Of a stretch of 23,780 nucleotides of DNA, positions 2,055 to 18,800 are shown piece after piece; position 1 is the first letter of the stretch; every line of letters begins with the position of its first letter. This DNA is from a virus. Location of the stretch: IMG/VR virus record IMGVR_UViG_3300031565_000375, positions 1 to 23,780 of that record; one strand, written 5' to 3'. The notes below the pieces were generated by a model. The model made no database searches and was not told where the DNA came from. It saw nothing but the letters and a program-made list of their open reading frames with translations. A program made the translations under genes and the position numbers.

Positions 2055-2444
2055 ATGGGAACTATAAAAGGTATAAACGTAGATTATCCAATAACAAAAG
2101 GAAATACAGGGTTTTTCAAACAAACCTTTGACACACTTTCTGCTGCCAGAAGTAAGATTTATATTTTACTAAAAACTGATCCAAGAGAAAGAGTATTTAA
2201 TCCTACGTTTGGTTTAGGAATGAGACAATATTTGTTTGAACCCATTACCCAATATACAGTTGATGATATTACTCAAAAAATACAAGATAGTATTGCTATG
2301 TATATACCTGAAGTATATATTTCAAACTTAGAAGTAAATGCTGATTTTAATAATAATGTAGATAGAAATGAAATAATAATTAAATTAACAGTTAATTTGA
2401 AAAAAGATCCAACACAAACTACAACCGTTAGAACGACTATATAA
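2055..2444 (+). CDS. 25: Baseplate wedge subunit, gp25-like (GPW/gp25 family)
   Basis: The 129-residue length is close to T4 gp25 (132 residues). The layout is that of the GPW/gp25 family: an N-terminal strand region, a helix with a conserved-looking run (PRERVFNPTFGLGMRQYLFE, near residues 43-62), a helix ending in an IPEV motif (DSIAMYIPEVYI), and C-terminal beta strands (IIIKLTVNL). In contractile tails this protein sits in the inner baseplate, binds gp6-type wedge proteins, and its sheath-like domain starts polymerisation of the tail sheath. The gp6-like gene follows after 12 nt, the gene order seen in many T4-like phages. The start has AAGGA 8 nt upstream. Confidence 0.9.
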   Translation: MGTIKGINVDYPITKGNTGFFKQTFDTLSAARSKIYILLKTDPRERVFNPTFGLGMRQYLFEPITQYTVDDITQKIQDSIAMYIPEVYISNLEVNADFNNNVDRNEIIIKLTVNLKKDPTQTTTVRTTI

Positions 2445-2456
2445 TAGGAGAACTTA

Positions 2457-4307
2457 ATGCCAACAAAAGATATATTTAAGGATGTAAAATATCTCAATAA
2501 AGATTTTGTATCTACACGAAACACTTTAATAGAGTTTTCTAAAATATATTTCCCAGAGGAATATAATGATTTTAGTGACTCATCTGTTGGTATGATGTTT
2601 ATTGAAATGAGTGCTTACGTTGCAGATGTTTTATCTTTATACACCGATACACAATTACGAGAGTCTTTGATTCAGTTTGCTAAAAATAAAAGTAATATAT
2701 TTAATATTGCTCAATCATTTAGTTATCAACCAAAATTAGCAGGTGTCTCATATACAGATTTAGATATTTATCAAATTGTTCCGGCTATTACCACTGGCGT
2801 AGATTTTTTACCCAATTGGAATTATGCACTAAAAATTAAAAATATGAGAGTAGCATCTCAGACAAATCCGGATATTCAATTTAGAATTGATAGTCCAGTT
2901 GATTTTGCAGAATCTGGATCAGAACCAACAGACATTACAATTTATGAATTAGATGGTTCAAATGTAGCATATTATTTATTAAAGAAAACAATAAAGGCAT
3001 CATCTGGAATAGTCACTACAAAAACATTTACAATTGGTAATGCTAAAAAATATTTAAATATAGCTCTACCAGATACTGATATAGTAGATATTTTAAACGT
3101 AGTAGATTCAGATGGTAATACTTGGTATGAAGTTCCTTACTTAGCACAAGATACTGTTATTGAAAGTATCCCAACAGAACAAATTTCCCAATACAGTGAT
3201 TATAGATATACAGTTCCTTATGTATTAAGATATAGAAAAGCACCAAGAAGATTTATTAAAAGAGTTAGAACTGATAATAGAACTGAACTACAGTTTGGTG
3301 CAGGTGTAAGTGCTATAGCAGATGAATTATTAATACCTAATCCAAGAACAATTGGTTATACATATTTTAATAGACCTGTTGATCCAAGAAACTTTTTAAA
3401 TACACGAACATATGGTTTAGCACCATCTAATATTACTTTAACTGTCACATATGTAAGAGGAACCGACGAGAGAGCAAATGCTGCAGTTGGAGATGTTAGT
3501 GTAGTCATAAATGCAGAAATAACAAATGATTCGACCGGTCTAGCAGATTATAGTAGAGTTAAAGCTTCATTAGCAGCAGTTAATTCTGTTCCCGCAACAG
3601 GAGCCAAAGGTGCAGAAAGTTTAGATGAGATTAGAAATAATACAATGGCATTTTTTGCTGCTCAAGAACGTTGTGTGACTATAGAAGATTATAGAATTAG
3701 AATAATGTCAATGCACCCAAGATATGGAACAGTTGCTAAGGTTGATATTATTCAAGATAGAGTAAAATCTTCTGGAAAAGATGCACTAAAAGGATATGTT
3801 GAAAACTTCTTAGCTCTAAATGCATATTGTTTATCATATGATGGTGACAAACATTTAATAACATTAAACCAAGCAGTAAAAGATAATTTAAAAGTATATT
3901 TAGAACAATATAGAATAGCAACAGATGCAGTTAATATTAAAGATGCTTATATAATTAATATTGGTGTAGAGTTTGAAATTATTACATATCAAAATGTAAA
4001 AAATAAAAGAGCAGTTGTATTACGTTGTATTGACGCACTAAAGACTTATTTTAATATTGATAACTGGCAAATAGGTCAGCCAATATTAATAACAGATTTA
4101 TATAACCTATTAGATAAAATTGAGGGTGTAAGAACTGTATCGGATATTAAAATAATAAATAAATATGACTCAACTGGAGTTCAATATTCAAGTAATGTTT
4201 ATGACACATACGCAGCAACTTATGAGGGAGTAGTTTATACTTCATTAGACCCAAGTTGTTTCGAAGTTAAATATCCCGATAAAGATATATTTGGAAGGGC
4301 AAAATAA
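2457..4307 (+). CDS. 6: Baseplate wedge subunit, gp6-like
   Basis: At 616 residues it is near T4 gp6 (660). The N terminus carries the family pattern: YLNKDFVSTRNTLIEFSKIY, then FPEEYNDF, a serine/glycine turn and FIEMSAYVADVLSLYTDTQL, then a region ending in FSYQPKLAG. This is the typical opening of gp6/gpJ-type wedge proteins. In the assembled baseplate, gp6 dimers form the continuous inner ring that ties the wedges together and contacts gp25 and gp53. The C-terminal part (about 400-600) has alternating helices and strands (IEDYRIRIMSMHPRYGTVAK, LYNLLDKIEGVRTVSDI), also typical of the baseplate J-like domain. It follows the gp25-like gene and shares one base with the next small gene, so the two are probably translationally coupled. 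No disruption is seen. Confidence 0.9.
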   Translation: MPTKDIFKDVKYLNKDFVSTRNTLIEFSKIYFPEEYNDFSDSSVGMMFIEMSAYVADVLSLYTDTQLRESLIQFAKNKSNIFNIAQSFSYQPKLAGVSYTDLDIYQIVPAITTGVDFLPNWNYALKIKNMRVASQTNPDIQFRIDSPVDFAESGSEPTDITIYELDGSNVAYYLLKKTIKASSGIVTTKTFTIGNAKKYLNIALPDTDIVDILNVVDSDGNTWYEVPYLAQDTVIESIPTEQISQYSDYRYTVPYVLRYRKAPRRFIKRVRTDNRTELQFGAGVSAIADELLIPNPRTIGYTYFNRPVDPRNFLNTRTYGLAPSNITLTVTYVRGTDERANAAVGDVSVVINAEITNDSTGLADYSRVKASLAAVNSVPATGAKGAESLDEIRNNTMAFFAAQERCVTIEDYRIRIMSMHPRYGTVAKVDIIQDRVKSSGKDALKGYVENFLALNAYCLSYDGDKHLITLNQAVKDNLKVYLEQYRIATDAVNIKDAYIINIGVEFEIITYQNVKNKRAVVLRCIDALKTYFNIDNWQIGQPILITDLYNLLDKIEGVRTVSDIKIINKYDSTGVQYSSNVYDTYAATYEGVVYTSLDPSCFEVKYPDKDIFGRAK

Positions 4308-4342
4308 TGAGCACAATTAAATTAAAAAAATTATTAAAAGAA
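4307..4342 (+). repeat. Tag-coding repeat, copy A1
   Basis: The first 12 codons of the gene at 4307 match the first 12 codons of the gene at 4645 at 34 of 36 bases; the rest of the two genes does not match. Both encode MSTIKLKKLLxE. The near identity at DNA level limited to the tag suggests recent duplication of the 5' end, or recombination at it. Confidence 0.85.
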
Positions 4343-4636
4343 TATAGTGATAAGAACGTATTTAAGGTACCAGTTAGTGTATCCCAATCAGATAAAAATC
4401 ACTTAAGTTATTTTAATGTTTCAGGTAATTCTAATGATGATTTAAAAGTAATAATTAAATTATTAAAAGGCAGAAATTTTAAGTATAAAGGAAAGACATC
4501 GGGTCATTACCCAAGCGAACATTGGTATTATGATGGTAAAAAATATCCTATAGGTAATTATAGATTAACTGGACACTATGAACTAAGAGGAAATCCAGGT
4601 GATTTTATAGAAGTAGAAGAAATAAATTTTAACTAA
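4307..4636 (+). CDS. Small tagged protein, type A (MSTIKLKKLLKE N terminus), unknown function
   Basis: This 109-residue protein begins MSTIKLKKLLKEYSD. The first 12 residues are nearly identical to those encoded at 4645, and related to the tag at 14019, while the rest is different. The body is polar with several aromatic residues (HYPSEHWYYDGKKYPIGNY near 66-84) and an acidic end, which looks like a small globular beta-rich domain; I do not recognise it. The tag ends with L-K-E at residues 10-12, the [LI]-x-E form cleaved by T4-type prohead proteases. An internal head protein or other packaged cargo is therefore a possible reading, but unproved. The start codon overlaps the stop of the gp6-like gene by one base. 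Confidence 0.75.
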   Translation: MSTIKLKKLLKEYSDKNVFKVPVSVSQSDKNHLSYFNVSGNSNDDLKVIIKLLKGRNFKYKGKTSGHYPSEHWYYDGKKYPIGNYRLTGHYELRGNPGDFIEVEEINFN

Positions 4637-4644
4637 GGAATACA

Positions 4645-4680
4645 ATGAGTACAATTAAATTAAAAAAATTATTAACAGAA
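4645..4680 (+). repeat. Tag-coding repeat, copy A2
   Basis: Second copy of the 36-bp tag-coding segment; it differs from 4307-4342 at two positions (AGC/AGT Ser codon and AAA/ACA, Lys to Thr at residue 11). Confidence 0.85.
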
Positions 4681-5007
4681 GTACATTGGTATGTAAGATC
4701 TATAAAGAATAGAGATGAAATTAATCCTAAAAATATGAAGATGGTAATGAAATATGACGCAAGACAAGATGGGACTATTATTGCTACATTTGTAGATAGA
4801 TATATTTTAGTTGGTCATTACTACGATGATAATATATACAAATATGGAATTAAATGGAAAAAACATTCAGATTCATCATCATCATATAAATGGTTAGTTG
4901 AATTTGATAGTATAGAAGAATTAAATAAAGAATTTGGATTACGTCTAGATAAAAAAACAATTCAGAAACAAATAGATAAATTAGAAGATAAATATCATAA
5001 CTCATAA
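4645..5007 (+). CDS. Small tagged protein, type A (MSTIKLKKLLTE N terminus), unknown function
   Basis: A 120-residue protein whose first 12 residues repeat those of its upstream neighbour except for Lys to Thr at residue 11, giving LLTE. The remainder is unrelated: a strand-rich middle (GTIIATFVDRYILVGHYYD, then YKYGIKWKK), a serine run near residue 75 (DSSSSYKW), and a helical, charged C terminus (EELNKEFGLRLDKKTIQKQI). I do not recognise the fold. The LTE at residues 10-12 fits the [LI]-x-E prohead-protease consensus even better than its neighbour. It has an AAGGA site 7 nt upstream and lies 8 nt after the previous stop. Shared tag plus divergent body suggests a targeting sequence attached to different cargo. 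Confidence 0.75.
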   Translation: MSTIKLKKLLTEVHWYVRSIKNRDEINPKNMKMVMKYDARQDGTIIATFVDRYILVGHYYDDNIYKYGIKWKKHSDSSSSYKWLVEFDSIEELNKEFGLRLDKKTIQKQIDKLEDKYHNS

Positions 5008-5016
5008 TGAATTAAA

Positions 5017-5076
5017 ATGAAAAAATCACAACTAAAAGCAATCATAAAAGAAGAAATTAAAAATGTGGTCAAAGAA
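5017..5076 (+). repeat. Tag-coding repeat, copy B1
   Basis: The first 20 codons match those at 12863-12922 at 51 of 60 bases, including an identical first 21 bases. Similarity stops after the tag, as in the type-A pair. Confidence 0.8.
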
Positions 5077-5271
5077 GATTATAGAAAAGATTATGCTTCC
5101 TATAAATCTAAATGGAAAGCATTAGAGACTGCTCTTAAAGCATATAAAAATGAACTTAAAAGATTAAATTCTGCGTCGGGTATGCCCCAAATAAAAGACA
5201 TAGAAAGACAACTTGTAAATTTAAATGTAGAAGCAGATGAATTAGTTAGTACATATGGTTATGGTGAATAA
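5017..5271 (+). CDS. Small tagged protein, type B (MKKSQLKAIIKEE N terminus), helical
   Basis: An 84-residue, almost wholly helical and charged protein. Residues 1-20 form the type-B tag, shared in sequence and in DNA (51 of 60 bases) with the gene at 12863. The body (about 25-75) is a likely coiled coil (WKALETALKAYKNELKRL, then IKDIERQLVNLNVEADEL). The tag holds I-K-E at residues 10-12 and V-K-E at 18-20. No good ribosome-binding site is visible in the 9-nt gap after the previous stop (TAATGAATTAAAATG), so re-initiation after the upstream gene is likely. Function unknown. Small helical internal proteins are common in T4-like heads, but other roles are possible. Confidence 0.7.
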   Translation: MKKSQLKAIIKEEIKNVVKEDYRKDYASYKSKWKALETALKAYKNELKRLNSASGMPQIKDIERQLVNLNVEADELVSTYGYGE

Positions 5272-5289
5272 TATAACAAGGAGAAATTA

Positions 5290-6408
5290 ATGCATATTTT
5301 TGTAGTGCCTTCAAAAGATACAACAATTTATAATGATGAGCCAACTCAAAACACTGGTAAAGATGAAATATTAGAAATAATAAAGAAACCTATAACTGCG
5401 GCTTCTAGAAGTCTTTCACCATCAGAAACAGCATATGTTTCAGCATCTATATTATCAAGAGCTTTGATTCAATTTGATTTGAGTTATATATCTAGGTCAA
5501 TAGCTGCAGGGACAATTACTGCTCCGAGATTTTATTTAAATATGCACGTGTGTAGAGTTGATGGGCAAGAAGAGTCTTCAACACTTTATATTTATCCTAT
5601 ACAAACGGGTTCTAGTTGGGTTCAAGGTATTGGTAAGAGATGGGATGGTGTAATAAGAGAAGAAGGTGCAAGTTGGACAGCAAGTGATGGTGAAGTACCA
5701 ACGTATTGGGCACTATCAGGCAGTAATTTTATAGACACAGGATCTCTGACAGCAACAGCATCATTATGGCCTAACCAAAATAATTTTACAGATAGTGAAA
5801 TATATACATATGAATTAGCAGACCTAAGAGCAGATGTAAGTAATATTGTAAATAGGTGGTTTAGTGGGTCTGAAAATAACGGATTTTTAATAAAACGTTC
5901 TGTATCTGAAGAGGAAGACGTAAAAGATTATGGTATAATTCAATTTTATTCAAGTGATACACATACAGTCTATGGACCAACTTTAGAGGTTGCCTGGGAT
6001 GATTCAGCATTCGCTACAGGAACATTAGTTGCTTCTAATATAGATGATATGTTTATATACACAAAGAATTTGAAAGCACAATATAATAATAGAGAAAAAG
6101 CCAGAATAAAAGTTGGAACTAGAGAATTATTTCCATCTAAATCATATGCAGATTCTAATCCATATTTACACCAAAAATATTTACCAACATCTTCTTATTA
6201 TTCTGTAATTGATTCATTTACAGCAGAAACAATTGTGCCATTTGATACTGGTTCAACAAAAATAAGTTGTGATAGTAATGGTAATTTTTTCAATATATGG
6301 ATGAATGGTTTTCAACCAGAAAGATTTTACAAATTAAGAGTTAAAGTTGTATCGGGTTCATCAGAAAATATTTTTGATATTCCAACTAATTTTAAGGTAG
6401 TTAGATAA
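5290..6408 (+). CDS. Virion structural protein with DNRLRE-like beta-sandwich N-terminal region
   Basis: This 372-residue protein opens with a pattern like the DNRLRE/CBM-type beta-sandwich found in secreted and virion surface proteins: DTTIYNDEPTQNTGKDEIL (residues 10-28), SRALIQFDLS (56-65), a strand RFYLNMHVCRV, then IYPIQTGSSWVQG and a Trp-rich segment. The region closes near residue 235 with YGPTLEVAWDD. The remaining part (about 240-372) is another beta-rich domain (KARIKVGTRELFPSK, FYKLRVKVVSGSSENIFDI). There is no signal peptide. It follows the tagged genes after 18 nt with an AAGGAG site, and its stop overlaps the next start by one base. Place in the cluster, in the slot of T4 gp7/gp8, suggests a peripheral baseplate or tail protein. 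The fold call is from pattern only. Confidence 0.7.
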   Translation: MHIFVVPSKDTTIYNDEPTQNTGKDEILEIIKKPITAASRSLSPSETAYVSASILSRALIQFDLSYISRSIAAGTITAPRFYLNMHVCRVDGQEESSTLYIYPIQTGSSWVQGIGKRWDGVIREEGASWTASDGEVPTYWALSGSNFIDTGSLTATASLWPNQNNFTDSEIYTYELADLRADVSNIVNRWFSGSENNGFLIKRSVSEEEDVKDYGIIQFYSSDTHTVYGPTLEVAWDDSAFATGTLVASNIDDMFIYTKNLKAQYNNREKARIKVGTRELFPSKSYADSNPYLHQKYLPTSSYYSVIDSFTAETIVPFDTGSTKISCDSNGNFFNIWMNGFQPERFYKLRVKVVSGSSENIFDIPTNFKVVR

Positions 6409-7694
6409 TGAGTGAAGTTAATAGCAATAATTATGAAGGTTTTACCGGGTCATTTGTTCCTGTTAGAGATATTAATAATAATTTATTATCTATTACAAGT
6501 TCAACTGTTCCAATTAATGACGAGTCTCAATTTATAGAACAGGATTCTTCCCGTGTCTATTATTCATCAAGTTCACTAAATCAGATAGTAGATACTAATT
6601 TTTCTGAATTAACAATAACAGATGAAGGTCAATTTACTATACCTTCTGGAAGTTTTATTGCTAATGAGTCTGATTATCAATGGTTATTAGACCGTATTCT
6701 AAACTTAGAAGAAGATTTAATATCAACAGAAAGTTTATTTCAATCAGAAATAGAAATATTAACCTCAGAAAATACAGCATTAGAGAGAACAGTTCAATCA
6801 GTTGCTGGTGCTGCTCTAAACATTACTAATGAATTAATTTCAAGATATGAGGCAACACAATCGGTTGCAAATGATTTGGGTGCATTTAGATATTTATGGA
6901 ATACACCATTTAATGATATAATAACAAATAGAAATGGTAATTTAACAGGTAGTCATCACGAATATTTAGATATCTCACAATCAGGAGCAACCGGTTTAGG
7001 TCAAATTCCTACAACAATTCACAGAACAGAAGTTAGTTATAGTTTAGCATATGACGGTAATTATTTAGTAGATTTATTTACAAACTATGAATGGGGAACA
7101 TTAACAATAGCTGCGCTACAAGGTAAAATAATAGAGTTGCATGCAGTGACAAAGTCGATGCAAGATCAAATAATTAGTTTAGAAAATCAATTATATATAT
7201 GTCGAAATAGTGGTGGAACTTCCGGTACATCTGGTGGTGGTGGAACACTTGGTCAATTATCTATTCATATTCAAACTCCTGATTTGAATAATGTTGTTGA
7301 AACATATAAAGATTTTGAAATTAGATTTAAGACAGACGATGGTCCATCAAGTCAATATAATTACGTAGATTGGATGTATGAACATGCAACAGGTGGTTTT
7401 ATGAATACAAGACATGTACAATATATAAATTCTTCTACTATTACATTTTGGAAAGATGTAGAATATACTTATTATAAATCAGATGGTGACCCACTAATTG
7501 GTCATAGATGGGATCCATGGGTTTTAGAAGCACAAGATGTGACTTCACTACAAGTTAAAATTGCCGGTGTATTACAACAACCATTTATTATTAATAATGA
7601 AAATTTAAGTAATTTATCATTTCCAGTAAAAGCAGGTCAAACAACTAATGTTTATATCGTTGCAGATAAACGTGCATGGGGACTTAGAGCATAA
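6408..7694 (+). CDS. Virion structural protein with two coiled coils and a Gly-rich linker
   Basis: An unrecognised 428-residue protein with clear modules. Residues 1-85 are Ser/Thr/Asn-rich. Residues 90-150 form a coiled coil (WLLDRILNLEEDLIST, then SEIEILTSENTALERTV). A globular stretch spans about 155-230. A second short coiled coil (GKIIELHAVTKSMQDQIISL) covers about 236-262. A flexible linker NSGGTSGTSGGGGTLG covers about 266-281. A C-terminal beta-rich domain (285-428) is rich in aromatics. Coiled coils joined to terminal beta domains are usual in trimeric fibres and baseplate connectors, so I infer a trimeric baseplate or short-fibre part. Both ends overlap neighbouring genes by one base (TAATG), consistent with tight coupling in a structural operon. 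Confidence 0.75.
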   Translation: MSEVNSNNYEGFTGSFVPVRDINNNLLSITSSTVPINDESQFIEQDSSRVYYSSSSLNQIVDTNFSELTITDEGQFTIPSGSFIANESDYQWLLDRILNLEEDLISTESLFQSEIEILTSENTALERTVQSVAGAALNITNELISRYEATQSVANDLGAFRYLWNTPFNDIITNRNGNLTGSHHEYLDISQSGATGLGQIPTTIHRTEVSYSLAYDGNYLVDLFTNYEWGTLTIAALQGKIIELHAVTKSMQDQIISLENQLYICRNSGGTSGTSGGGGTLGQLSIHIQTPDLNNVVETYKDFEIRFKTDDGPSSQYNYVDWMYEHATGGFMNTRHVQYINSSTITFWKDVEYTYYKSDGDPLIGHRWDPWVLEAQDVTSLQVKIAGVLQQPFIINNENLSNLSFPVKAGQTTNVYIVADKRAWGLRA

Positions 7695-10600
7695 TGAGCA
7701 CAACAAATTTAAATACAATATTACCAGTAGAAACTCAGGGATACCTAACAGCCTCTGCAGATATGAGTTCTTCATTTGTTGAGTTAATCGTATATGATGT
7801 GAATGGTGTATTGATAAATGAAAACTTAATTTATATGAACACGATACAGGGTGATAGTTTATATATTTATGATACAAAATTTATTATGAACCCAGGTGTT
7901 CATTTAAGATCACTTGGTTATTCAGCCGGAACATATAAAGTTAAATATAATTTCTTTAAAAAAGTAGTTGGCAATTTTGATGAGGTTGAACAAACAGCAA
8001 CACTTAAAAAAATATCTCCGTCAAGAACAGAATTAGAAGTTGTAATACCAACCGATGTATCAAGTTCTATTAAAATAGAGATAGATAATTTTTTAGAATC
8101 AGATAAATCAAAATTAGTATATTATACGTTTTTTGGTAGTGATAGAAATTTCTTAATTATTAATAATATGTTGTATAATAAAGATCTATTATTGAAACTA
8201 TATGAAGAATTACCTGCTGATATTGATATTTTAACAAGATTTACTATTGTTGAAAAATATGTAGAATCATATGAAGATACAATTACTTTACGCACATCAT
8301 ATATTGATGATCTAAGTAATTTAAATTATTTACATGGTCCAAAAATAAATTATAAAGCTGCAGGGCTAACATATAGAACTACACCATTAGAAAATTTTGA
8401 AGCATTGGCTAGTACAACTATAGTAAAGCAAGATGAGATTACAAGATTATATCTGAGTTCAAGTCTAATTGAAGGTATAGATATTAATATTGATTATAGA
8501 GATTTTTCACAGTTTATTCATTTTAGCTCAGCAGAACAAAGATTGAAAAATTTTAAATCTAAAATGAAAAAATTAGAGTTCTATAATTCAAAATTGGTTT
8601 TATTTGCAAGTGGAAGCACAGTTGGTTCTACAGGTTCAAGTCTTTCATATTACAAAGGTCAAAAAGATGAAATATTAAATACGTTCGATCAATATGAATA
8701 TTTTATGTATTATGAAACAGGTTCATATGAAAGTAGTTCATTGGGAGTATTTCCAGATTATACTTGGCCAAAATACACTAATACTAACCCATATCTATTA
8801 TATCCTGTCACTTCAAGTCAGGCATCTATGTGGTATGCTTCAATATTAGTTAGTGCTTCTGAATATGATAATTTGAACCCAAATATTTTAACAAATACTA
8901 TACCAGTTGAAATAGTATTAGATGATCAAAATAGTCAATATCTTACAAATATTCAAATGGTTGGTCATATGTTAGATATAAATTATAATTATGTAAATAG
9001 AATGACTTCAATTCATGAAAGACAAAATTGTATTTTTGAAGGTATACCAAGAGAGTTAATTTTACCAGCAATAAACCACTATGGGTTTGACCTAAGAAGC
9101 GGTAATGTAATTAAAGGTTTAGTAGAATGTATTCCTATATCAGGATCCATCACAGGTAGTGTTTCAGACTGTTCAATAAATATGTTTGAAACATATGAAA
9201 ATATTACTACTGAGGTTTGGAAAAGAATATTAAACAATCTACCTTACTTATATAAAACAAAAGGTACTATTAGAGGACTAAAAGCATTAATAACTTGTTA
9301 TGGTATTCCTTCAACAATTTTATATATAAGAGAATACGGTGGTCCAGATTTAAGTAATGATACAAGTAGTTTAGATGAAAGTAATTATGCATTAGATAAC
9401 TTTACCACGGTATTACCGTTTACAGGTGGTCAAGGTATTAGTTTAGGTTGGCATACATCATCTTTTGGAAGATATCCAAGTACGGTTCAAATAAGATTTG
9501 ATACAACAGGAAGTGCATATACTTTAGCAAATTCTATGTCATTAGTAGAAGTTGCAGACTCTTGGTCACTTTCAGTTGCACAAAGTGGGTCTAATGGATA
9601 TGGATATATAAAATTTGAATTAGTAGGTGGTCCAACTATAAGTTCAAGTGCAATGCCAATATATGATGGTCATTATACATTTGTAAATCTTCAAAGAGAA
9701 AGTGGAAGCGACGGTGCTATAAGTCAGTCATTTAGTTTAGATGCTAAAAAATATGATAGAGGTCAAATATTATACGCTGTAAGTGCAAGTGTAGATACTA
9801 CCCCAGCAGAAAATGCAGCATGGAGAAGTCCAGGTACATTAATTATTGGTAGTGGTTCTTTTGCAACACCGTTTTATGGTCAATTAGACGAATTTAGATT
9901 ATGGGAAACACCACTAACAGAATATGTTATTAATAGTCATGTAAAGTTTCCTGAGTCTTACATTGGAAATACGCTCACTGGTTCTTTTGTAGATTTATTA
10001 TTACGCTTTGCTTTTGATGACCCAATAAATATGGCAAGTTTCCAAACCGAGTCTATTGTTAATAATGCAGCATCACTAGATTATGATATGAGTGGTCTAA
10101 CAATATTTGGTTGGCCAGATGCACCAACTTTTCCTTATAGTTTTACAACAGATGCATATGAAGGTGAAGCACACGCATTAAATATTGGTATGAATAGATA
10201 TTCTTCTAATAAAGTTAGAGTAGAAGGTGGAACATTAAATGGTCCATTATCATCAGTCACTTTTAGAGAAACCGGAGAATACGATAATGCACAATTAGAC
10301 TCTAATAAACTAGGAATATATTTCAGCCCTACAGAATTAATAAATGAAGATATTATTAAAACATTAGCAGTGTCAGACATTGGAGATTTGATTGGTGACC
10401 CTGGAGAAGTTTATAGTTCATCATATTCAAATTTAGAAGCACTAAGTAGATTATATTGGAAATATGGTAGCAATAGAATTTCAACATTTGATTATATGAA
10501 TTATATTAAATATTATGACCCATCGTTGTTTGACCATATAAAAGAGTTTATACCTGCAAGATGCCAAACCGTATTAGGTGTAATGTATGAACCAACAGTT

Positions 10601-11134
10601 TTGGAAAGAGCTAAAGTACAACATAATGTTCCTGTGGTTGAGAGATTAGACTATTCAGATACTATTAATATGCCAAGTCAAGCAATAACGAGTAGTTATG
10701 ATAACTATAATTTAATGATTTCGATGAGTTATGTTTCAATAACTAGTTCAAATTTTGAAAAATCCAATATTTATACTATATTGACAGTCTCAGAAATTTA
10801 TGCACCAACTGGTAATTTAATAGAAATGATAGTACCAATGGTTGATTTTGATCACAGTTTAAGAACTTATTCAAGTTCTGCTGGTGCTCCGGGTGATATA
10901 GGTTCCATCAAATTTTCATTAACACAATCATATGACTTTGTAACCAGATATCATCCAAGACATTATAGAAATTTTGAAGGTTATTACACATGGGAAAGAA
11001 GATTGAAATACGAAGGTTGTATGCAAAATGAAAACACAACAACAGATCAACTATCACCTATTGAGGTATGGGAAACTAATCCAAATAAACTAACAGCAAG
11101 AGATGATGGAAGATCCAATTTACAAGTAAATTAA
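7694..11134 (+). CDS. Large baseplate-type structural protein with embedded LamG-like domain
   Basis: At 1146 residues this is the largest structural protein here, near the size of T4 gp7 (1032) and in the gp7 position relative to the gp6-like gene. The N-terminal 110 residues are beta-rich. A helical and mixed region follows (about 130-540), ending in a motif seen in tail proteins that wrap the tail tip (EVWKRILNNLPYLYKTKGT, then RGLKALITCYGI, about 506-541). Residues about 565-755 look like a concanavalin/LamG domain (GHYTFVNLQRESGSDG, then FYGQLDEFRLWETPL near 727). The C-terminal part includes YMNYIKYYDPSLFDHIKEFI, then RHYRNFEGYYTWERRLKY. A LamG domain suggests glycan binding at the cell surface. 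The gp7-like role is inference from size and order. No stop or frameshift interrupts it. Confidence 0.75.
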   Translation: MSTTNLNTILPVETQGYLTASADMSSSFVELIVYDVNGVLINENLIYMNTIQGDSLYIYDTKFIMNPGVHLRSLGYSAGTYKVKYNFFKKVVGNFDEVEQTATLKKISPSRTELEVVIPTDVSSSIKIEIDNFLESDKSKLVYYTFFGSDRNFLIINNMLYNKDLLLKLYEELPADIDILTRFTIVEKYVESYEDTITLRTSYIDDLSNLNYLHGPKINYKAAGLTYRTTPLENFEALASTTIVKQDEITRLYLSSSLIEGIDINIDYRDFSQFIHFSSAEQRLKNFKSKMKKLEFYNSKLVLFASGSTVGSTGSSLSYYKGQKDEILNTFDQYEYFMYYETGSYESSSLGVFPDYTWPKYTNTNPYLLYPVTSSQASMWYASILVSASEYDNLNPNILTNTIPVEIVLDDQNSQYLTNIQMVGHMLDINYNYVNRMTSIHERQNCIFEGIPRELILPAINHYGFDLRSGNVIKGLVECIPISGSITGSVSDCSINMFETYENITTEVWKRILNNLPYLYKTKGTIRGLKALITCYGIPSTILYIREYGGPDLSNDTSSLDESNYALDNFTTVLPFTGGQGISLGWHTSSFGRYPSTVQIRFDTTGSAYTLANSMSLVEVADSWSLSVAQSGSNGYGYIKFELVGGPTISSSAMPIYDGHYTFVNLQRESGSDGAISQSFSLDAKKYDRGQILYAVSASVDTTPAENAAWRSPGTLIIGSGSFATPFYGQLDEFRLWETPLTEYVINSHVKFPESYIGNTLTGSFVDLLLRFAFDDPINMASFQTESIVNNAASLDYDMSGLTIFGWPDAPTFPYSFTTDAYEGEAHALNIGMNRYSSNKVRVEGGTLNGPLSSVTFRETGEYDNAQLDSNKLGIYFSPTELINEDIIKTLAVSDIGDLIGDPGEVYSSSYSNLEALSRLYWKYGSNRISTFDYMNYIKYYDPSLFDHIKEFIPARCQTVLGVMYEPTVLERAKVQHNVPVVERLDYSDTINMPSQAITSSYDNYNLMISMSYVSITSSNFEKSNIYTILTVSEIYAPTGNLIEMIVPMVDFDHSLRTYSSSAGAPGDIGSIKFSLTQSYDFVTRYHPRHYRNFEGYYTWERRLKYEGCMQNENTTTDQLSPIEVWETNPNKLTARDDGRSNLQVN

Positions 11135-11151
11135 AATTTTTAAATAAACTC

Positions 11152-11170
11152 AATATTTATATAATAATAT
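11152..11170 (+). promoter_or_regulatory. Candidate phage promoter (ATATTTAT motif)
   Basis: In the 55-nt gap before the gene at 11190 lies ATATTTAT (11153-11160) followed by ATAATAATAT, starting 37 nt before the start codon. It matches the candidates at 1263, 14779 and 18972 in core and position. Confidence 0.35.
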
Positions 11171-11189
11171 ACAAACAAGGAGATTTACG

Positions 11190-11816
11190 ATGTCATATTT
11201 AGACAATACCACAATAACAGTAGATGCAGTTCTAACCAAATTAGGAAGAGAAAGATTTTCTCAAGGTAATTTCAATGTCACACAGTTTGCATTAGCTGAT
11301 GATGAGATAGATTATGGTTTATATAATGTGACCCACCCATCAGGTTCAGACTATTATGCTATAGCTTTAGAAAATCTACCTTTATTAGAAGCAATTCCTG
11401 ATGATTCAAAAACTATGAAATTTAAATTAATAACTTTACCAAAAGGAACAGCTCAAATACCTGTTATTTCTACCGGTATTTCAACTCTTAATATGTACGG
11501 TGCATATAACGGTCGTCCAGGTCAAACAGTAGTAGTAGCTCCATCGACAGTAAATGGACTTAATAATACATTGGGATACACTGCAACATTAGATTCACCT
11601 AATTATGTTACACTAGCTATTAAAGAAGCTGTATCTGTTAGATCCATTATTACTCCATCTGGTAGAAGGGCCTCAACGCTACCAGGAATGTCATCGGTTG
11701 TAGGTAAATCATTTACACTAACAGCAAAAGCTTTACCACAATCACTTTGGACTACTGGATCAATAATTATGACAATCAATGTTTATAAAGATATAAAAAC
11801 AGCAAACGAATATTAA
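11190..11816 (+). CDS. Virion structural protein of unknown fold (MSYLDNTTITVDAVLTKLG N terminus)
   Basis: A 208-residue protein starting MSYLDNTTITVDAVLTKLG and continuing with FALADDEIDYGLYN. From memory this opening is common among predicted structural proteins of aquatic T4-like phages, but I cannot tie it to a named T4 protein. Strands and turns dominate and there are no Cys residues. A basic patch (TPSGRRAST) lies near residue 155. The C-terminal half looks like an immunoglobulin-like sandwich (SFTLTAKAL, then GSIIMTINVYKDI). An AAGGAG site lies 8 nt upstream, and a candidate promoter lies in the gap. The next gene follows after 25 nt. It is probably a tail or baseplate-attached subunit. 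Confidence 0.7.
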   Translation: MSYLDNTTITVDAVLTKLGRERFSQGNFNVTQFALADDEIDYGLYNVTHPSGSDYYAIALENLPLLEAIPDDSKTMKFKLITLPKGTAQIPVISTGISTLNMYGAYNGRPGQTVVVAPSTVNGLNNTLGYTATLDSPNYVTLAIKEAVSVRSIITPSGRRASTLPGMSSVVGKSFTLTAKALPQSLWTTGSIIMTINVYKDIKTANEY

Positions 11817-11841
11817 AATAAAAAGTACAGGAGATAATTAA

Positions 11842-12849
11842 ATGGCAGATACAGTATTTACAATTTTTGGTGCAGATGATCAGGTAGTTGCTTCACCTAG
11901 TAGAGTAACAAATGCACTTTGGTCTAATGGAGTAGGTATATTAACTACATTCACAACATCATTAGCCTTCCCAACAGGTACATTAATAGGTAATGATAGA
12001 TATTATGTTGACATTTATGCATCAGCTCCTGCTACTGAACAAGTTGAATTTTCACTTGCATATGGACATATATCGGGTTCTGGAGCTAATTCTAGTGATT
12101 TAGATTATCCAACAAAAGCAATATATAGTCAATACAGAAATCTATTATTAGATAATGCTAGTGGTCAATTTATACTAAACACTAGTGGACCCATTTCAAT
12201 GAGTCAATTTTATGCTATTACAATAAAGAGAGCAAACTTAAAACAAAAACTTGATCCTGGCAACTGGGAACTACATTTAGGTGGTCTTGCAGCATCACCA
12301 TCTCTGAGTTTAATTGATAATAGTGCTGACTCAAACGATTTAAATGCCGGTTCAACAGCTCGTTCTTATAAGGTTGTAAGTGGATCAATAACAAGCGGTC
12401 AAGTAGGTACAGCTATATATGGACTTGTTTATCCCGATTATGGTGTATTATTACTAGATCCATCAATATTTTCCGCATCAATTAAGATGTCATTGAATAC
12501 AGGTGCAACTTGGGTAAATGCTGCTAATAAAAATAATATATGGAATATGTTTACAGCAATGTCTCAAAGTGAATACTTCGCAGCTCGTAGCGAAGAAAAA
12601 ATAAGTTCTACACACTATTTTGTTAGAGTAAAAAATCAACAATACAATTATAGTAGTAATCCTACGTTTTATTCAGCATCAGACGGAACTATAATTCAAC
12701 AAGCATTTTTTGATGATCCTCAGGTATTTCTTACAACAGTTGGTTTATATAATGATGGTAATGAATTATTAGCAGTTGCAAAACTAAGTCAACCTGTGAC
12801 TAAGGGATTTGATAAGGAAGCATTAATTAAGGTTCGTTTGGACTTCTAA
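11842..12849 (+). CDS. Virion structural protein, paralogue P1 (shared C-terminal domain)
   Basis: A 335-residue beta-rich protein. Residues about 1-155 form one domain (GNDRYYVDIYASAPATEQVE, later FYAITIKRANLKQKLDPGNW). Residues about 160-255 form a second. The C-terminal domain (about 260-335) has FVRVKNQQYNYSSNPTF, then VGLYNDGNELLAVAKLSQPV and a closing IKVRLDF. The same C-terminal layout recurs in the protein at 13185 (EGEYNYTSNLTAML, then IGLYNDNNELLMIGKLGRPY, then FVVRIDL), so the two genes are partial paralogues. The start has an AGGAG site 7 nt upstream (ACAGGAGATAATTA). It probably forms a peripheral tail or baseplate component, with the shared domain serving as an attachment or multimer module. 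The biochemical role is unknown. Confidence 0.75.
   Translation: MADTVFTIFGADDQVVASPSRVTNALWSNGVGILTTFTTSLAFPTGTLIGNDRYYVDIYASAPATEQVEFSLAYGHISGSGANSSDLDYPTKAIYSQYRNLLLDNASGQFILNTSGPISMSQFYAITIKRANLKQKLDPGNWELHLGGLAASPSLSLIDNSADSNDLNAGSTARSYKVVSGSITSGQVGTAIYGLVYPDYGVLLLDPSIFSASIKMSLNTGATWVNAANKNNIWNMFTAMSQSEYFAARSEEKISSTHYFVRVKNQQYNYSSNPTFYSASDGTIIQQAFFDDPQVFLTTVGLYNDGNELLAVAKLSQPVTKGFDKEALIKVRLDF
12619..12849 (+). repeat. Duplicated C-terminal domain, copy 1
   Basis: Region coding for residues 260-335 of paralogue P1. It matches 13758-14000 at protein level: YNYSSN versus YNYTSN, GLYNDGNELLAVAKL versus GLYNDNNELLMIGKL, and a closing hydrophobic-Val/Arg strand (VRLDF versus VRIDL). Confidence 0.8.
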
Positions 12850-12862
12850 TGAAGGAAAATAA

Positions 12863-12922
12863 ATGAAAAAATCACAACTAAAACAAATTATTAAAGAAGA
12901 AATTAAAAAGGTTTTAAAAGAA
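12863..12922 (+). repeat. Tag-coding repeat, copy B2
   Basis: Second copy of the 60-bp type-B tag segment, about 7.8 kb downstream of copy B1 (5017-5076). Most of the nine base differences lie in codons 8-10 and 16-18. Confidence 0.8.
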
Positions 12923-13159
12923 GAAAAAATAAGTCAATATGGTACCCATTCTAATGGACGCTTGTATTTTCAAATTGGAAATGATTTTTATAAGATTGAT
13001 CACTTCTCAGGTGGTACTGCAATTAGAAAAGCAAAACAGATACCAACAGGATTTAGAAAACAAAATAAACCAGATTTACAATTTGCCAACCAAATTATTA
13101 AAAGTATTAAAAATAAAAAAAATGATATGGGCAGTTGGTATAGTCTTTCATACTCTTAA
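12863..13159 (+). CDS. Small tagged protein, type B (MKKSQLKQIIKEE N terminus), unknown function
   Basis: A 98-residue basic protein whose first 20 residues (MKKSQLKQIIKEEIKKVLKE) repeat those encoded at 5017. After the tag comes a different body with a short strand pair (GRLYFQIGNDFYKIDHF, about 32-48) and a Lys-rich helix (QFANQIIKSIKNKKND). I-K-E at residues 10-12 and L-K-E at 18-20 fit a T4-type prohead protease site. The gene sits as a separate cassette between the two paralogous structural genes at 11842 and 13185, as if inserted there. An AAGGAAA site precedes it. Function unknown; the tag suggests targeting, possibly to the prohead. Confidence 0.72.
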   Translation: MKKSQLKQIIKEEIKKVLKEEKISQYGTHSNGRLYFQIGNDFYKIDHFSGGTAIRKAKQIPTGFRKQNKPDLQFANQIIKSIKNKKNDMGSWYSLSYS

Positions 13160-13184
13160 TTTAAATTAAAGTAAAAGGAATTAA

Positions 13185-14000
13185 ATGTTCAAGTCATTGG
13201 ACTCATCAGATGTTGCCTTACGAACATTCAAGGTATTTAAAAACTGGTCGTGTGATCATACAACAACTGGTAGTTTAGGTATAACAATTCAAGATGGCAT
13301 TTATGATGCTACATATTTTACCTACGGAAACCCGCAAAATGCAGATGGAAGCTATAAAAAATTAATATGGTCTTCTATCAATCATTTATATTATTCAAGT
13401 GGTAGCCACGTAGAAGATAACCCTTGGTATAATTATGCAAACTTTTCTCAACTGAAATATGTAAGTAGAAGTTTAGGTACTGGAATAAAAGTTATTAATA
13501 TCCCGCATAAAAAATTCGGCGAACAAATAAAACCCAACAGTGTAGTAATAGAATCAGGATCAGGCGCGTCATATAAAAAATTTATTGACGATGGTTCTTA
13601 TAATTTATTTGTTAGTGGAAATGATTCTCCAAGAGAAGTAATAGGTAATGTATTTTACGATACAGGTCATATCCTTATAACAAGTGAAAGTTATACTGCA
13701 TCACTTGCTACATTTGATTTATCATTTCAAAGTACTGTAGAAATAAGAGAATATGAAGTAGTATGCACAGTATTAGAAGGTGAATATAATTATACTTCAA
13801 ATCTAACAGCAATGTTATCTGGTTCTGGTAATAACGGATTTTATATGACCCCGTTAGTTTCATCTTCAATGAAGCCACTTATTACAATGATTGGTTTATA
13901 CAATGATAACAATGAATTATTAATGATTGGTAAGTTAGGAAGACCTTATAAAAGGGAATATGATTTAGATACTACATTTGTTGTAAGAATTGACCTCTAA
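13185..14000 (+). CDS. Virion structural protein, paralogue P2 (shared C-terminal domain)
   Basis: A 271-residue protein with a distinct N-terminal half (MFKSLDSSDVALRTFKVFKN, then Trp/Tyr-rich segments LIWSSINHLYYSSGS and NPWYNYANFSQL) and a beta-rich middle (IKPNSVVIESGSG, then GNVFYDTGHILITSES). The C-terminal domain (residues 192-271) is paralogous to that of the protein at 11842. The N-terminal halves do not match, so this is domain sharing rather than whole-gene duplication. An AAGGAA site lies 6 nt before the start. Together with its partner it probably forms part of the peripheral baseplate or a tail-attached structure. I cannot name a T4 counterpart. Confidence 0.75.
   Translation: MFKSLDSSDVALRTFKVFKNWSCDHTTTGSLGITIQDGIYDATYFTYGNPQNADGSYKKLIWSSINHLYYSSGSHVEDNPWYNYANFSQLKYVSRSLGTGIKVINIPHKKFGEQIKPNSVVIESGSGASYKKFIDDGSYNLFVSGNDSPREVIGNVFYDTGHILITSESYTASLATFDLSFQSTVEIREYEVVCTVLEGEYNYTSNLTAMLSGSGNNGFYMTPLVSSSMKPLITMIGLYNDNNELLMIGKLGRPYKREYDLDTTFVVRIDL
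13758..14000 (+). repeat. Duplicated C-terminal domain, copy 2
   Basis: Region coding for residues 192-271 of paralogue P2; the counterpart is 12619-12849. A serine/glycine-rich insert (MLSGSGNNGFYMT) distinguishes this copy. Confidence 0.8.
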
Positions 14001-14018
14001 CTAAACAAGAAAATTAAA

Positions 14019-14360
14019 ATGAATATAAAATTAAAAACATTATTAACTGAAAAAATGAAAAATATAAGAAAAAGATATAAATTTTCAGGTCTATCAAAAG
14101 ATACAGACGGAGACTTCGCTGTTTCAGTTAGTGAGGGATTTACAAATGTCGTAGATTCTCAATATCAACCATTTGTGACATTGGAATTACAAACATACAC
14201 TTTAGCGCATATGGGCATTCCACTAAAAAATCAAAATGATGCATCCAGTAGTAAAATGATATCAGAGTTTATAGACGCAGCAGATAAATTTAATAAAGAT
14301 TTAATTAAAATTAAAAAACGATATGGATTATTAGATGATATAGAATTATCATCAAAATGA
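14019..14360 (+). CDS. Small tagged protein (MNIKLKTLLTE N terminus), unknown function
   Basis: A 113-residue basic protein with a tag MNIKLKTLLTE close to type A (IKLKKLLTE), L-T-E falling at residues 9-11. The body has a strand pair (DGDFAVSVSEGFTNVV, about 31-46), a middle strand (PFVTLELQTYTLAHMGI) and a helical C terminus (MISEFIDAADKFNKDLIKIK). I do not recognise it. It is the only gene in the window ending in TGA, and the frame stays open for 16 more sense codons after that stop. The ribosome-binding site is weak (AAGAAAA). It lies between the last structural paralogue and the nuclease/primase genes. The tag suggests the same targeting as the other small tagged proteins. Confidence 0.7.
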   Translation: MNIKLKTLLTEKMKNIRKRYKFSGLSKDTDGDFAVSVSEGFTNVVDSQYQPFVTLELQTYTLAHMGIPLKNQNDASSSKMISEFIDAADKFNKDLIKIKKRYGLLDDIELSSK

Positions 14361-15800: not shown

Positions 15801-18800
15801 ATGGATATAATACAAATACCTACTTCTATTGAAAAAGTTGATAAGATATTTCATATTGCTGATATACATATAAGGCCATATAAAAGACACCACGAATATA
15901 AACAGGTTTTTCAATCATTATACAACTCGATAAAATTACAAGCCACTAAGAACTCAATCATTGCAGTATTAGGAGACATTGTTCACGCAAAAACAGAAAT
16001 GTCACCCGAACTTATAGATACAGTTTCTGATTTTTTTAATAATCTTGCCTCATTGTGTTATACGATTGTTATTCCTGGAAACCACGATGCCAATCTAAAT
16101 AATAAAAATAGAATGGATGCAATATCCCCGATTTTGAGAAATATAAATAATAAAAATCTTATTTATCTAAAGGATAGTGGTGTATATCAGTTTGCAGATT
16201 TGTATTTTGTAAATATGTCTGTATTCAATAATACGAAAAAACTTGATTTGAATGGTATAAAAGAACTAAAACCGAAAATAGCATTATTTCACGGTATTGT
16301 AGATAAAGCAATAAATAAATTCGGGTTTCATTTTAGAAATGAAAAAATAGATAAAGATGTATTTAGTAGTTATGATATCGTTTTATTAGGTGATATTCAT
16401 AAACATCAGTATTTAGCACCAAACATTGCTTATCCTGGTTCCTTGATACAACAAAACCACGGCGAAGATTTAGAACACGGTTATATTTTATGGGATATGA
16501 CTGATTTTTCAAGTGAGTTTATTAAAATACCAAACGACTACGGTTATTATACATTAGAAATTAGAAATGGAATTATTCCCGAGGTGACTGATATTCCAAA
16601 GAAGTGTCGCCTAAGAATACAGGCATATGATATTATAGCCGGTGATTTAACAAACTTGATTTTGGAGATAAAGAAAAAATACAAACCTACTGAAATAACT
16701 ATAAATAGAATTAATAGTATTGGCATATTAGATATTAATGGAGCAAAGTTAGATTTACCAAATATTACTGATGTTGATTATCAAAATAAACTAATAGAAG
16801 ATTTTGTAGTTCAAACATATTCTGTAGATAAAGAAATAGTAGATGCTATAAAACAAATCAACATAGAAACAAACTTAGAAATAGAAATAGAAGATACAGT
16901 AAAAAATGTAAGATGGACTCCAATAAGATTTGAATGGTCAAATATGTTTTCTTATGGTGAAGGAAACTATGTAGAGTTTGCTGATATGAAAGGTGTTATA
17001 GGTTTATTTGGACCAAATAGGGACGGGAAAAGTGCATTTGTAGATTCATTATCATTTTGTTTATTTGATAAAGCCAGCAAAGATTTCAAACCAATTAATA
17101 TTATGAACAATAAGAGTGATGAGTTTATATGTAAGGTTGTATTTGAACTATCAGGCAGACAATACTTTATTGAAAGAAAAGTTTGGAAAAATAAATCAGG
17201 AAACCCAATGTATAAAGTAAACTTTGGATTTTATGATGATAAAGGGGTTGAACAATCATTGAATGGAGAAAATAGATGGGGAACAAACAAAAATATAGAC
17301 TCATATATTGGTTCATTTGAAGACTTTGCTCTAACAACATTTAGTATGCAGGGCAAAAGTGCAAACTTTATTGAGAAAGGACATTCAGACAGAAAAGATT
17401 TAATTATTCAGTTTGTAGGTTTAGGTTTATTTGACCAACTATTTGAAATAGCCGCAGACAAAAATAAGGAAATAAATATTTCTCTAAAGACTTTAGAAAC
17501 AGAAAACTGGGATGATAAACTAATCGCAGTCGAAAATAATTTTACTAAATATGAAACAAAGTTTAATAATAAAGATAGCGAGTCTAAAGTTATTATTGAT
17601 AATATAGTTAATCTTGAAAATGAAATTAAAGATTTGACTTTTCAACTAATAGATATTGATGAGGCTTTATCTATTACAGAACTGAGATTGGACCAACAAA
17701 CTTATAAAAATACAGGTCTTAGACTTGGGTCTTTAGTAAGTAACATTACATCCGTGATACAAGATGAAACAAAACAGTTAGATGAATATAAAGAAAGAAT
17801 AGATATTTTTAATTTACTAAAGGTTGAAGATTTATATAATGAATTAGCATCGCTCGTGTCAGATAAAAAAGATATTGAGTCTGAGATTAATACTTTACAC
17901 GTAAAAATCGATAATGAATTAGATAAAATGAAAAAACTTACTGAGTTAGAATATGACCCAGATTGTAATTATTGTATGAATAATATATTTGTAAAAGATG
18001 CAATTGCTACTAAAAAACTTTTAGATGGACATGAAAAACAGATGGAAGATTTATCAGAGCGTCTATCTCATTTTGAAGAAATAATTAAAACAAAATCAAA
18101 CATAAAAACTGATTATATTGAATATAAAGATATATTAAAAAGTGCAAATGACTTAGAAATAAAATCATATAAGAATGCGGTGTTAAAAACTGAGATTGAA
18201 GATGATATTGAAGAGAATAAAATATTAATAAAAGAAAATGATAATAAGATTAAAAAGTATTATTATTTAGAAAAATCTATAAAATTTAATGAGAATCTTC
18301 AAATTAATATTGATGAAAAACAATTAGAAAATAATAAACTTAAAACACAAAAACTAGATATTGATAAAGAAACATTAGATATTTATGGTAAAATGAAGGT
18401 TGAAGAGTCTAATATTAAAACCTATAAAGATAATATTAAGAGGTTAAATAAACTAAGAGTAAAATCTGAAAGCTATAAGTATTATATTAGTGCTATCAAA
18501 AGAGATGGTATTCCCTATGACTTGATTACAAAAATAGTTCCAGCAATAGAGGCAGAAATAAATAATATTCTAAATCAAATCGTTGATTTTTCTATTGTTA
18601 TAGATTTAGATGAGTCAAAAAACATAAATATGTATATTGTTTATGATGAAGAAAACTTCTGGACATTGGAGTTAGCAAGCGGTATGGAACAATTTATTGC
18701 TTCTATTGCTATCAGAGTTGCTCTAACAAATATTTCACACTTACCAAGACCGAACTTTTTAATAATCGATGAAGGATGGGGAACCTTAGATGCAGATAAC

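Follow-up and report, generated by a model that had tools for sequence, protein, structure and literature searches.

Why do five small genes of a T4-like phage begin with related N-termini and then continue into unrelated proteins? The question is raised by a 23,780-base IMG/VR fragment (the window), whose gene content identifies it as part of an uncultured T4-like myovirus. The genes concerned are the open reading frames (ORFs) starting at positions 4307, 4645, 5017, 12863 and 14019. We propose, with a probability of roughly 0.8, that their shared N-termini ("tags") are cleavable, modular propeptides that would work like the capsid targeting sequence (CTS) of T4 internal proteins. An association of the tags with head assembly is supported by sequence comparison; the docking partner, cleavage, packaging, injection and the functions of the cargo are what we infer by analogy with T4. 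The five genes are laid out as follows.

4307..4342, + strand: gene 4307, type-A tag MSTIKLKKLLKE, predicted cleavage after E12
4343..4636, + strand: gene 4307, body of putative cargo gene 1, 97 amino acids, no family
4645..4680, + strand: gene 4645, type-A tag MSTIKLKKLLTE, predicted cleavage after E12
4681..5007, + strand: gene 4645, body of putative cargo gene 2, 108 amino acids
5017..5076, + strand: gene 5017, type-B tag MKKSQLKAIIKEEIKNVVKE, potential sites after E12 and E20
5077..5271, + strand: gene 5017, body of putative cargo gene 3, 64 amino acids, charged; orthologue in relative L016
12863..12922, + strand: gene 12863, type-B tag MKKSQLKQIIKEEIKKVLKE, potential sites after E12 and E20
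12923..13159, + strand: gene 12863, body of putative cargo gene 4, 78 amino acids, no family
14019..14051, + strand: gene 14019, type-A tag MNIKLKTLLTE, predicted cleavage after E11
14052..14360, + strand: gene 14019, body of putative cargo gene 5, 102 amino acids, no family

Related N-termini on unrelated bodies

All five ORFs described in the initial annotation are present, with the related N-termini reported there. Tag A (IKLKxLL[KT]E) opens ORFs 4307, 4645 and 14019, and tag B (MKKSQLKxIIKEEIKxVxKE) opens ORFs 5017 and 12863. Across the first 12 codons of the 4307/4645 pair, 34 of 36 bases are identical, the same count as originally given, and identity falls to about 6/15 and then 5/15 in the two blocks that follow. 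For the 5017/12863 pair the close similarity stands, although the original count of 51/60 needs correction: recounting gives 52/60 across 20 codons, followed by 7/15, 9/15 and 3/15. Here similarity stops at a second potential cleavage site (VLKE at residue 20 in 12863, VVKE in 5017). The claim that similarity ends after the tags thus holds for both pairs. So does the claim that the bodies are unrelated: each close pair has at least 7 of 10 residues in common at positions 2-11, and no such pair exists at positions 32-41.

A degenerate tag-A pattern matches three times in the window and never in 100 shuffles. The motif [LIVMF][LI]xE, with E at residues 8-13, is found in 5 of the 23 called window genes, against an expectation of 0.5 ± 0.7 when N-terminal residues are shuffled and of 0.7 from internal positions. 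An [LI]xE at about residue 10, as in the T4-type CTS, is present (T4 serving as control).

Searches of PHROGs and Pfam returned no reliable family for any of the five bodies. AlphaFold predicts a five-stranded sheet followed by C-terminal helices for the 4645 body, at moderate confidence (predicted local distance difference test, pLDDT, 63) and with no significant match in the PDB; the prediction for 14019 is poor and of low confidence. Comparison of the window with phage records by megablast gave no match, nor did tblastn with the 20-residue tag or with 14019, the short query possibly lying below the sensitivity of the search.

Tagged genes around the prohead protease

A contig that matches 12 kb of the window at 99.7% identity reaches 31.9 kb in window coordinates and adds the following genes.

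~27272, 27568 and 27925: three further tag-B genes
29011: terminase, after the three tag-B genes
31132: T4-type portal (PF07230, 1e-20)

This portal is 77% identical to that of a relative, L362, in which a gp21-type prohead protease (Peptidase_S77, 15897-16520; PF03420, 2.8e-30; phrog_207, 1.6e-47) has A- and B-tagged genes on both sides (MKKSELRQIIKEE, MKLKQLIKE, MKKSDLKNIIREE, MKLASLIKE and MKKSELRQIIREE). Tags also flank gp21 in G003, whose gp6 is 54% identical to that of the window and whose capsid protein (Pfam Gp23 match, 2.9e-75) has the site QLIKE|SS. Peptidase_S77 was detected in 15 of 20 records tested; four of the other five have a short or doubtful tag-A ORF, and the fifth is a 47-kb fragment. 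The cleavage motif that the initial annotation proposed to look for in the capsid protein is kept in all nine relatives compared (9/9), where it lies near residue 60 and has the form N-Q-A-[KR]-Q-[LI]-[VI]-x-E. This is the expected propeptide junction, the T4 gp23 propeptide being 65 residues long (PMC5694885).

The conserved glutamate could instead belong to a binding motif, in which case the tag would direct packaging and be left uncut or cut incidentally. It forms the invariant column of the aligned tagged proteins, albeit in a set chosen by patterns that contain the glutamate, and in T4 targeting and processing use different residues, a residue-10 variant being targeted and unprocessed (PMC9026906). 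Packaging without processing nevertheless seems unlikely to us, as the motif of the tags is similar to the site conserved in the capsid protein, and a further [LIV]xE marks the point in tag B where similarity ends.

In Microcystis phage Mel-JY01, a gene annotated as ribosomal protein S21 (L007:22183-22410) lies within the head-gene cluster, after gp21 and a putative core protein.

Enrichment of the motif and genomic position of the tags

The motif test defined above was applied to nine protease-bearing genomes with 1,685 called genes. The motif occurs in 118 genes, versus expectations of 35.9 based on internal positions (p 3e-28) and of 36.3 ± 5.8 with shuffled N-termini. No enrichment was seen in four long protease-lacking contigs (11 observed versus 8.4 and 6.5 expected), the only negative controls, which stem from dubious tag-A matches and span a GC range of 0.31 to 0.44. 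In T4, used as a positive control, 11 of 266 genes match, among them ipII, ipIII, gp21, gp22 and gp24. Motif genes are concentrated within 8 kb of gp21 (26/151 versus 92/1525; odds ratio 3.2, p 6e-6). Such tags, carried by unrelated proteins and present in dozens in related phages, many of them encoded beside the protease gene, probably mark cargo packed into the head and maybe injected into the host.

Other tagged genes, in the window as well, lie near two baseplate genes. These landmarks, and three downstream genes recognised by family searches, are listed here.

2055..2444, + strand: baseplate wedge protein gp25 (PF04965)
2457..4307, + strand: baseplate wedge protein gp6
14427: RusA-like resolvase
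14820: primase
15801: fused SbcD/SbcC

The window gp6 is 47% identical to that of Mel-JY01 and 41% identical to that of Flavobacterium phage immuto. Interchangeable cargo would explain why tags are common to adjacent genes and to related phages and bodies are not. Islands of putative cargo genes flank gp25/gp6 in relatives. L016 (87-91% DNA identity to the window) keeps 4645 and 5017 and lacks 4307 at the corresponding place; in L018, where 4307 is also absent, only the 4645 orthologue remains, with the tag MGIKLKTLINE. The 4645 orthologues of both relatives retain a tag-A variant. In L019 (gp6 66% identical), about ten genes with MKLKDLIKE-like tags surround gp25/gp6, and every body is different.

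Clustering the bodies of 269 tag-pattern proteins yielded 154 clusters, the largest of which (78 members) comprises one family of orthologues whose genes adjoin gp25. Homologous bodies were found with different tag types in L014 (B), L327 (C) and L311 (A), in L104 (D) versus L108 and L168 (C), and in L088 (A) versus L319 (B). The consensus of 98 aligned tagged proteins is MxxKLKxLIxE, with almost no conservation beyond it. The tags recur in relatives as short N-terminal profiles with variable bodies, which the initial annotation proposed to look for. The bodies fall into about 150 clusters, and homologous ones have exchanged tags; these sequence checks support the idea of a modular targeting tag exchanged between cargo proteins. 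The strict tag-B pattern identifies only five loci, and a looser one is dominated by the gp25-adjacent family. Among type-A pattern matches in IMG/VR, six are out of frame and many others fall in short ORFs only; both sorts were discarded as chance matches.

The presence of tagged genes around gp25 and gp6 in the window, L019 and L021, together with a tag-B-like helix in a family encoded directly upstream of gp25 (ORF 1306-2043 and homologues), might suggest loading onto the tail or baseplate instead of the head, the helix binding a tail component and the contractile tail delivering the body. This seems quite improbable: identical tag types are present among the head genes surrounding gp21, near which they are enriched, and tagged genes are located in other parts of the genome too, besides the head and baseplate regions. 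Moreover, the tags end in a gp21-type cleavage motif that is also on the capsid protein, and tail loading gives no reason for such a motif.

A feature of the DNA itself (recent recombination copies, or a signal for translation start common to the genes, either of them without a function in the protein) would account for the high DNA identity of the window pairs and the uniformly A/T-rich upstream sequences, but, already disfavoured, it can now be given hardly any credence: upstream bases are not conserved, the L019 copies encode the same residues by different codons, and 13 tag-B copies vary synonymously at S4, L6, I9, I10, E12 and E13 while their residues stay constant, so that it is the peptide, and not the DNA, that is under selection.

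Several observations weigh against cleavable capsid-targeting propeptides. The motif test on the 266 T4 genes missed ipI and Alt, and some of the matches elsewhere are ordinary proteins (terminase, clamp loader). The aligned set and the body clusters were gathered by tag patterns, so that the tag consensus is partly built in. The window and the overlapping contigs of the same species end before the protease gene and the head genes concerned; the gp21-like protease that the initial annotation proposed to look for was found in relatives with a head cluster, including L362 among its tagged genes, and the capsid-protein motif likewise comes from relatives. Finally, the tag-B-like helix opening the gp25-adjacent family of about 78 members suggests that such a helix can have another role.

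A model for tag function

If the tags are capsid-targeting propeptides, each amphipathic, basic tag would dock its cargo on the prohead core (the scaffold gp22 and its partners) during head assembly. The gp21-type S77 protease would then cut after [LIV]-x-E at residue 11 or 12 and, in tag B, probably also at residue 20; several cleavage sites are usual in propeptides (PMC5694885). Cargo cleavage would coincide with maturation of the capsid protein and destruction of the scaffold. The freed bodies would remain beside the DNA inside the head and probably be ejected into the host on infection, like the T4 internal proteins and Alt. On a broader view, to which we give an even chance, environmental T4-like phages possess several interchangeable packaging zip codes (A, B, C and D), at least one being a copy of the scaffold C-terminus. 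With these they would load sets of injected proteins that are large and change fast.

Type-C tags resemble the scaffold C-terminus

Type-C tags, such as MKKQILSEQFRRMQKLAGIITE, contain the motif [RK][MFWL]xxLA[GN][ILV]. The same motif (RMxxLAG) forms the C-terminus of the gp22 scaffold in all nine genomes, as in ILNESNNVVERMKKLAGIVK. It is almost absent from the middle of proteins, and the negative controls gave one N-terminal match. Type-C tags are carried by the following loci.

L008:1675-2139
L009:13061-13456
L327:6483-7061
L327:18878
L327:19223
L306:9992
L313:15607

The match suggests that the type-C tag docks where the scaffold C-terminus docks. It thereby points to a docking partner and makes the docking question testable. 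LLKE, common to tag A and the scaffold N-terminus, is weaker evidence.

Comparison with known systems

The closest parallel is the T4 CTS of IPI, IPII, IPIII and Alt. There, too, 10-20 N-terminal residues ending in [LI]xE are found on otherwise unrelated proteins, and ten N-terminal residues are enough to target IPIII (PMC9026906). The relatives of the window have a gp21-family protease and a gp22/gp23-type head, and in both cases the cargo is highly variable (PMC9026906, PMC3012670), a diversity that in T4 is ascribed to an arms race against the defences of the host (PMC3012670). What the present tags were seen to share with the CTS is the motif and where it is placed, and packaging of their cargo is a prediction. 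Unlike in T4, at least four interchangeable tag types occur, and as many as about ten putative cargo genes form an array, with many located beside gp21 or among baseplate genes.

In the giant phages SPN3US and phiKZ, ejection proteins packaged in the head lose N-terminal propeptides to a related prohead protease, and SPN3US has two diverged paralogues with an identical 15-residue N-terminus (PMC5694885); several of these propeptides exceed 100 residues, however, and the motif is S/A-x-E. In phage P1, the N-terminal 30 residues of DarB are enough to bring a reporter into the capsid (PMC9024508), but the authors found no N-terminal consensus among the Dar proteins, in contrast to the shared tags described here.

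A search confined to open-access literature found no description of these tag sequences, the interchangeable types, the scaffold-like tag or cargo arrays of this size and location. The initial annotation was to this extent right in calling the tags undescribed; the CTS concept and the diversity of its cargo have long been known for T4 (PMC9026906, PMC3012670). The principle is thus that of T4, and what appears new is the tag sequences, their several types and the much larger cargo arrays.

Candidate cargo proteins

Most tagged bodies have no recognisable family. Those that can be recognised include cytidylyltransferase-like proteins, a 5'(3')-deoxyribonucleotidase, a zeta-toxin-like kinase, HAD and alpha/beta hydrolases and GNAT. 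A tagged 2H phosphoesterase (L290:17420-18505) shows similarity to Acb1, a protein acting against the cyclic-oligonucleotide-based antiphage signalling system (CBASS), at an E value of 4e-4, below the curated cut-off; it is a candidate packaged anti-defence enzyme. ADP-ribosyltransferase-like bodies are weakly supported, with a Tox-ART-HYD1 match at E 0.006 for L012 and none for L184 or Mel-JY01. Together with zeta-toxin-like kinases and nucleotidases, these two kinds of protein are candidates for the injected set.

In Mel-JY01, three neighbouring genes (L006:14276-14926, L006:14923-15105 and L006:16056) have MIKLxSL tags and related bodies (ISDRVWHxT...), possibly ADP-ribosyltransferase-like, though they match no family. 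Two Mel-JY01 proteins have the tag MIKLKSLL[QK]E. In immuto, likewise a tagged isolate, cleavage is predicted after E12 in KNV73_gp076, gp080 and gp095, after E13 in gp077 and gp092, and after E8 or E22 in gp083 and gp230.

Should the tags work as proposed, a short N-terminal sequence would show which small proteins of environmental T4-like phages enter virions and hosts. Anonymous genes could then be listed as candidates for injected effectors and anti-defence proteins, the tag alone would reveal from sequence the set of proteins that an uncultured phage injects, and new tags would be available for loading proteins into phage heads.

Other genes of the baseplate region

ORF 1306-2043 of the window has its tag-B-like helix (LRAIIKEE) within the N-terminal region. 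Its family is also found upstream of gp25 in L003 (21525-21944) and in L095-L174, with an N-terminal helix beginning MKLDQLRKIIREEV. All members form one orthologous family, so the similarity of their helices does not represent modular tagging, and the family was not counted as such. Small lipoprotein-like proteins are also encoded among the baseplate genes (L019:4573-5133, L019:11860-12066 and L023:2064-2645), each with a signal followed by LACSP or GCYT.

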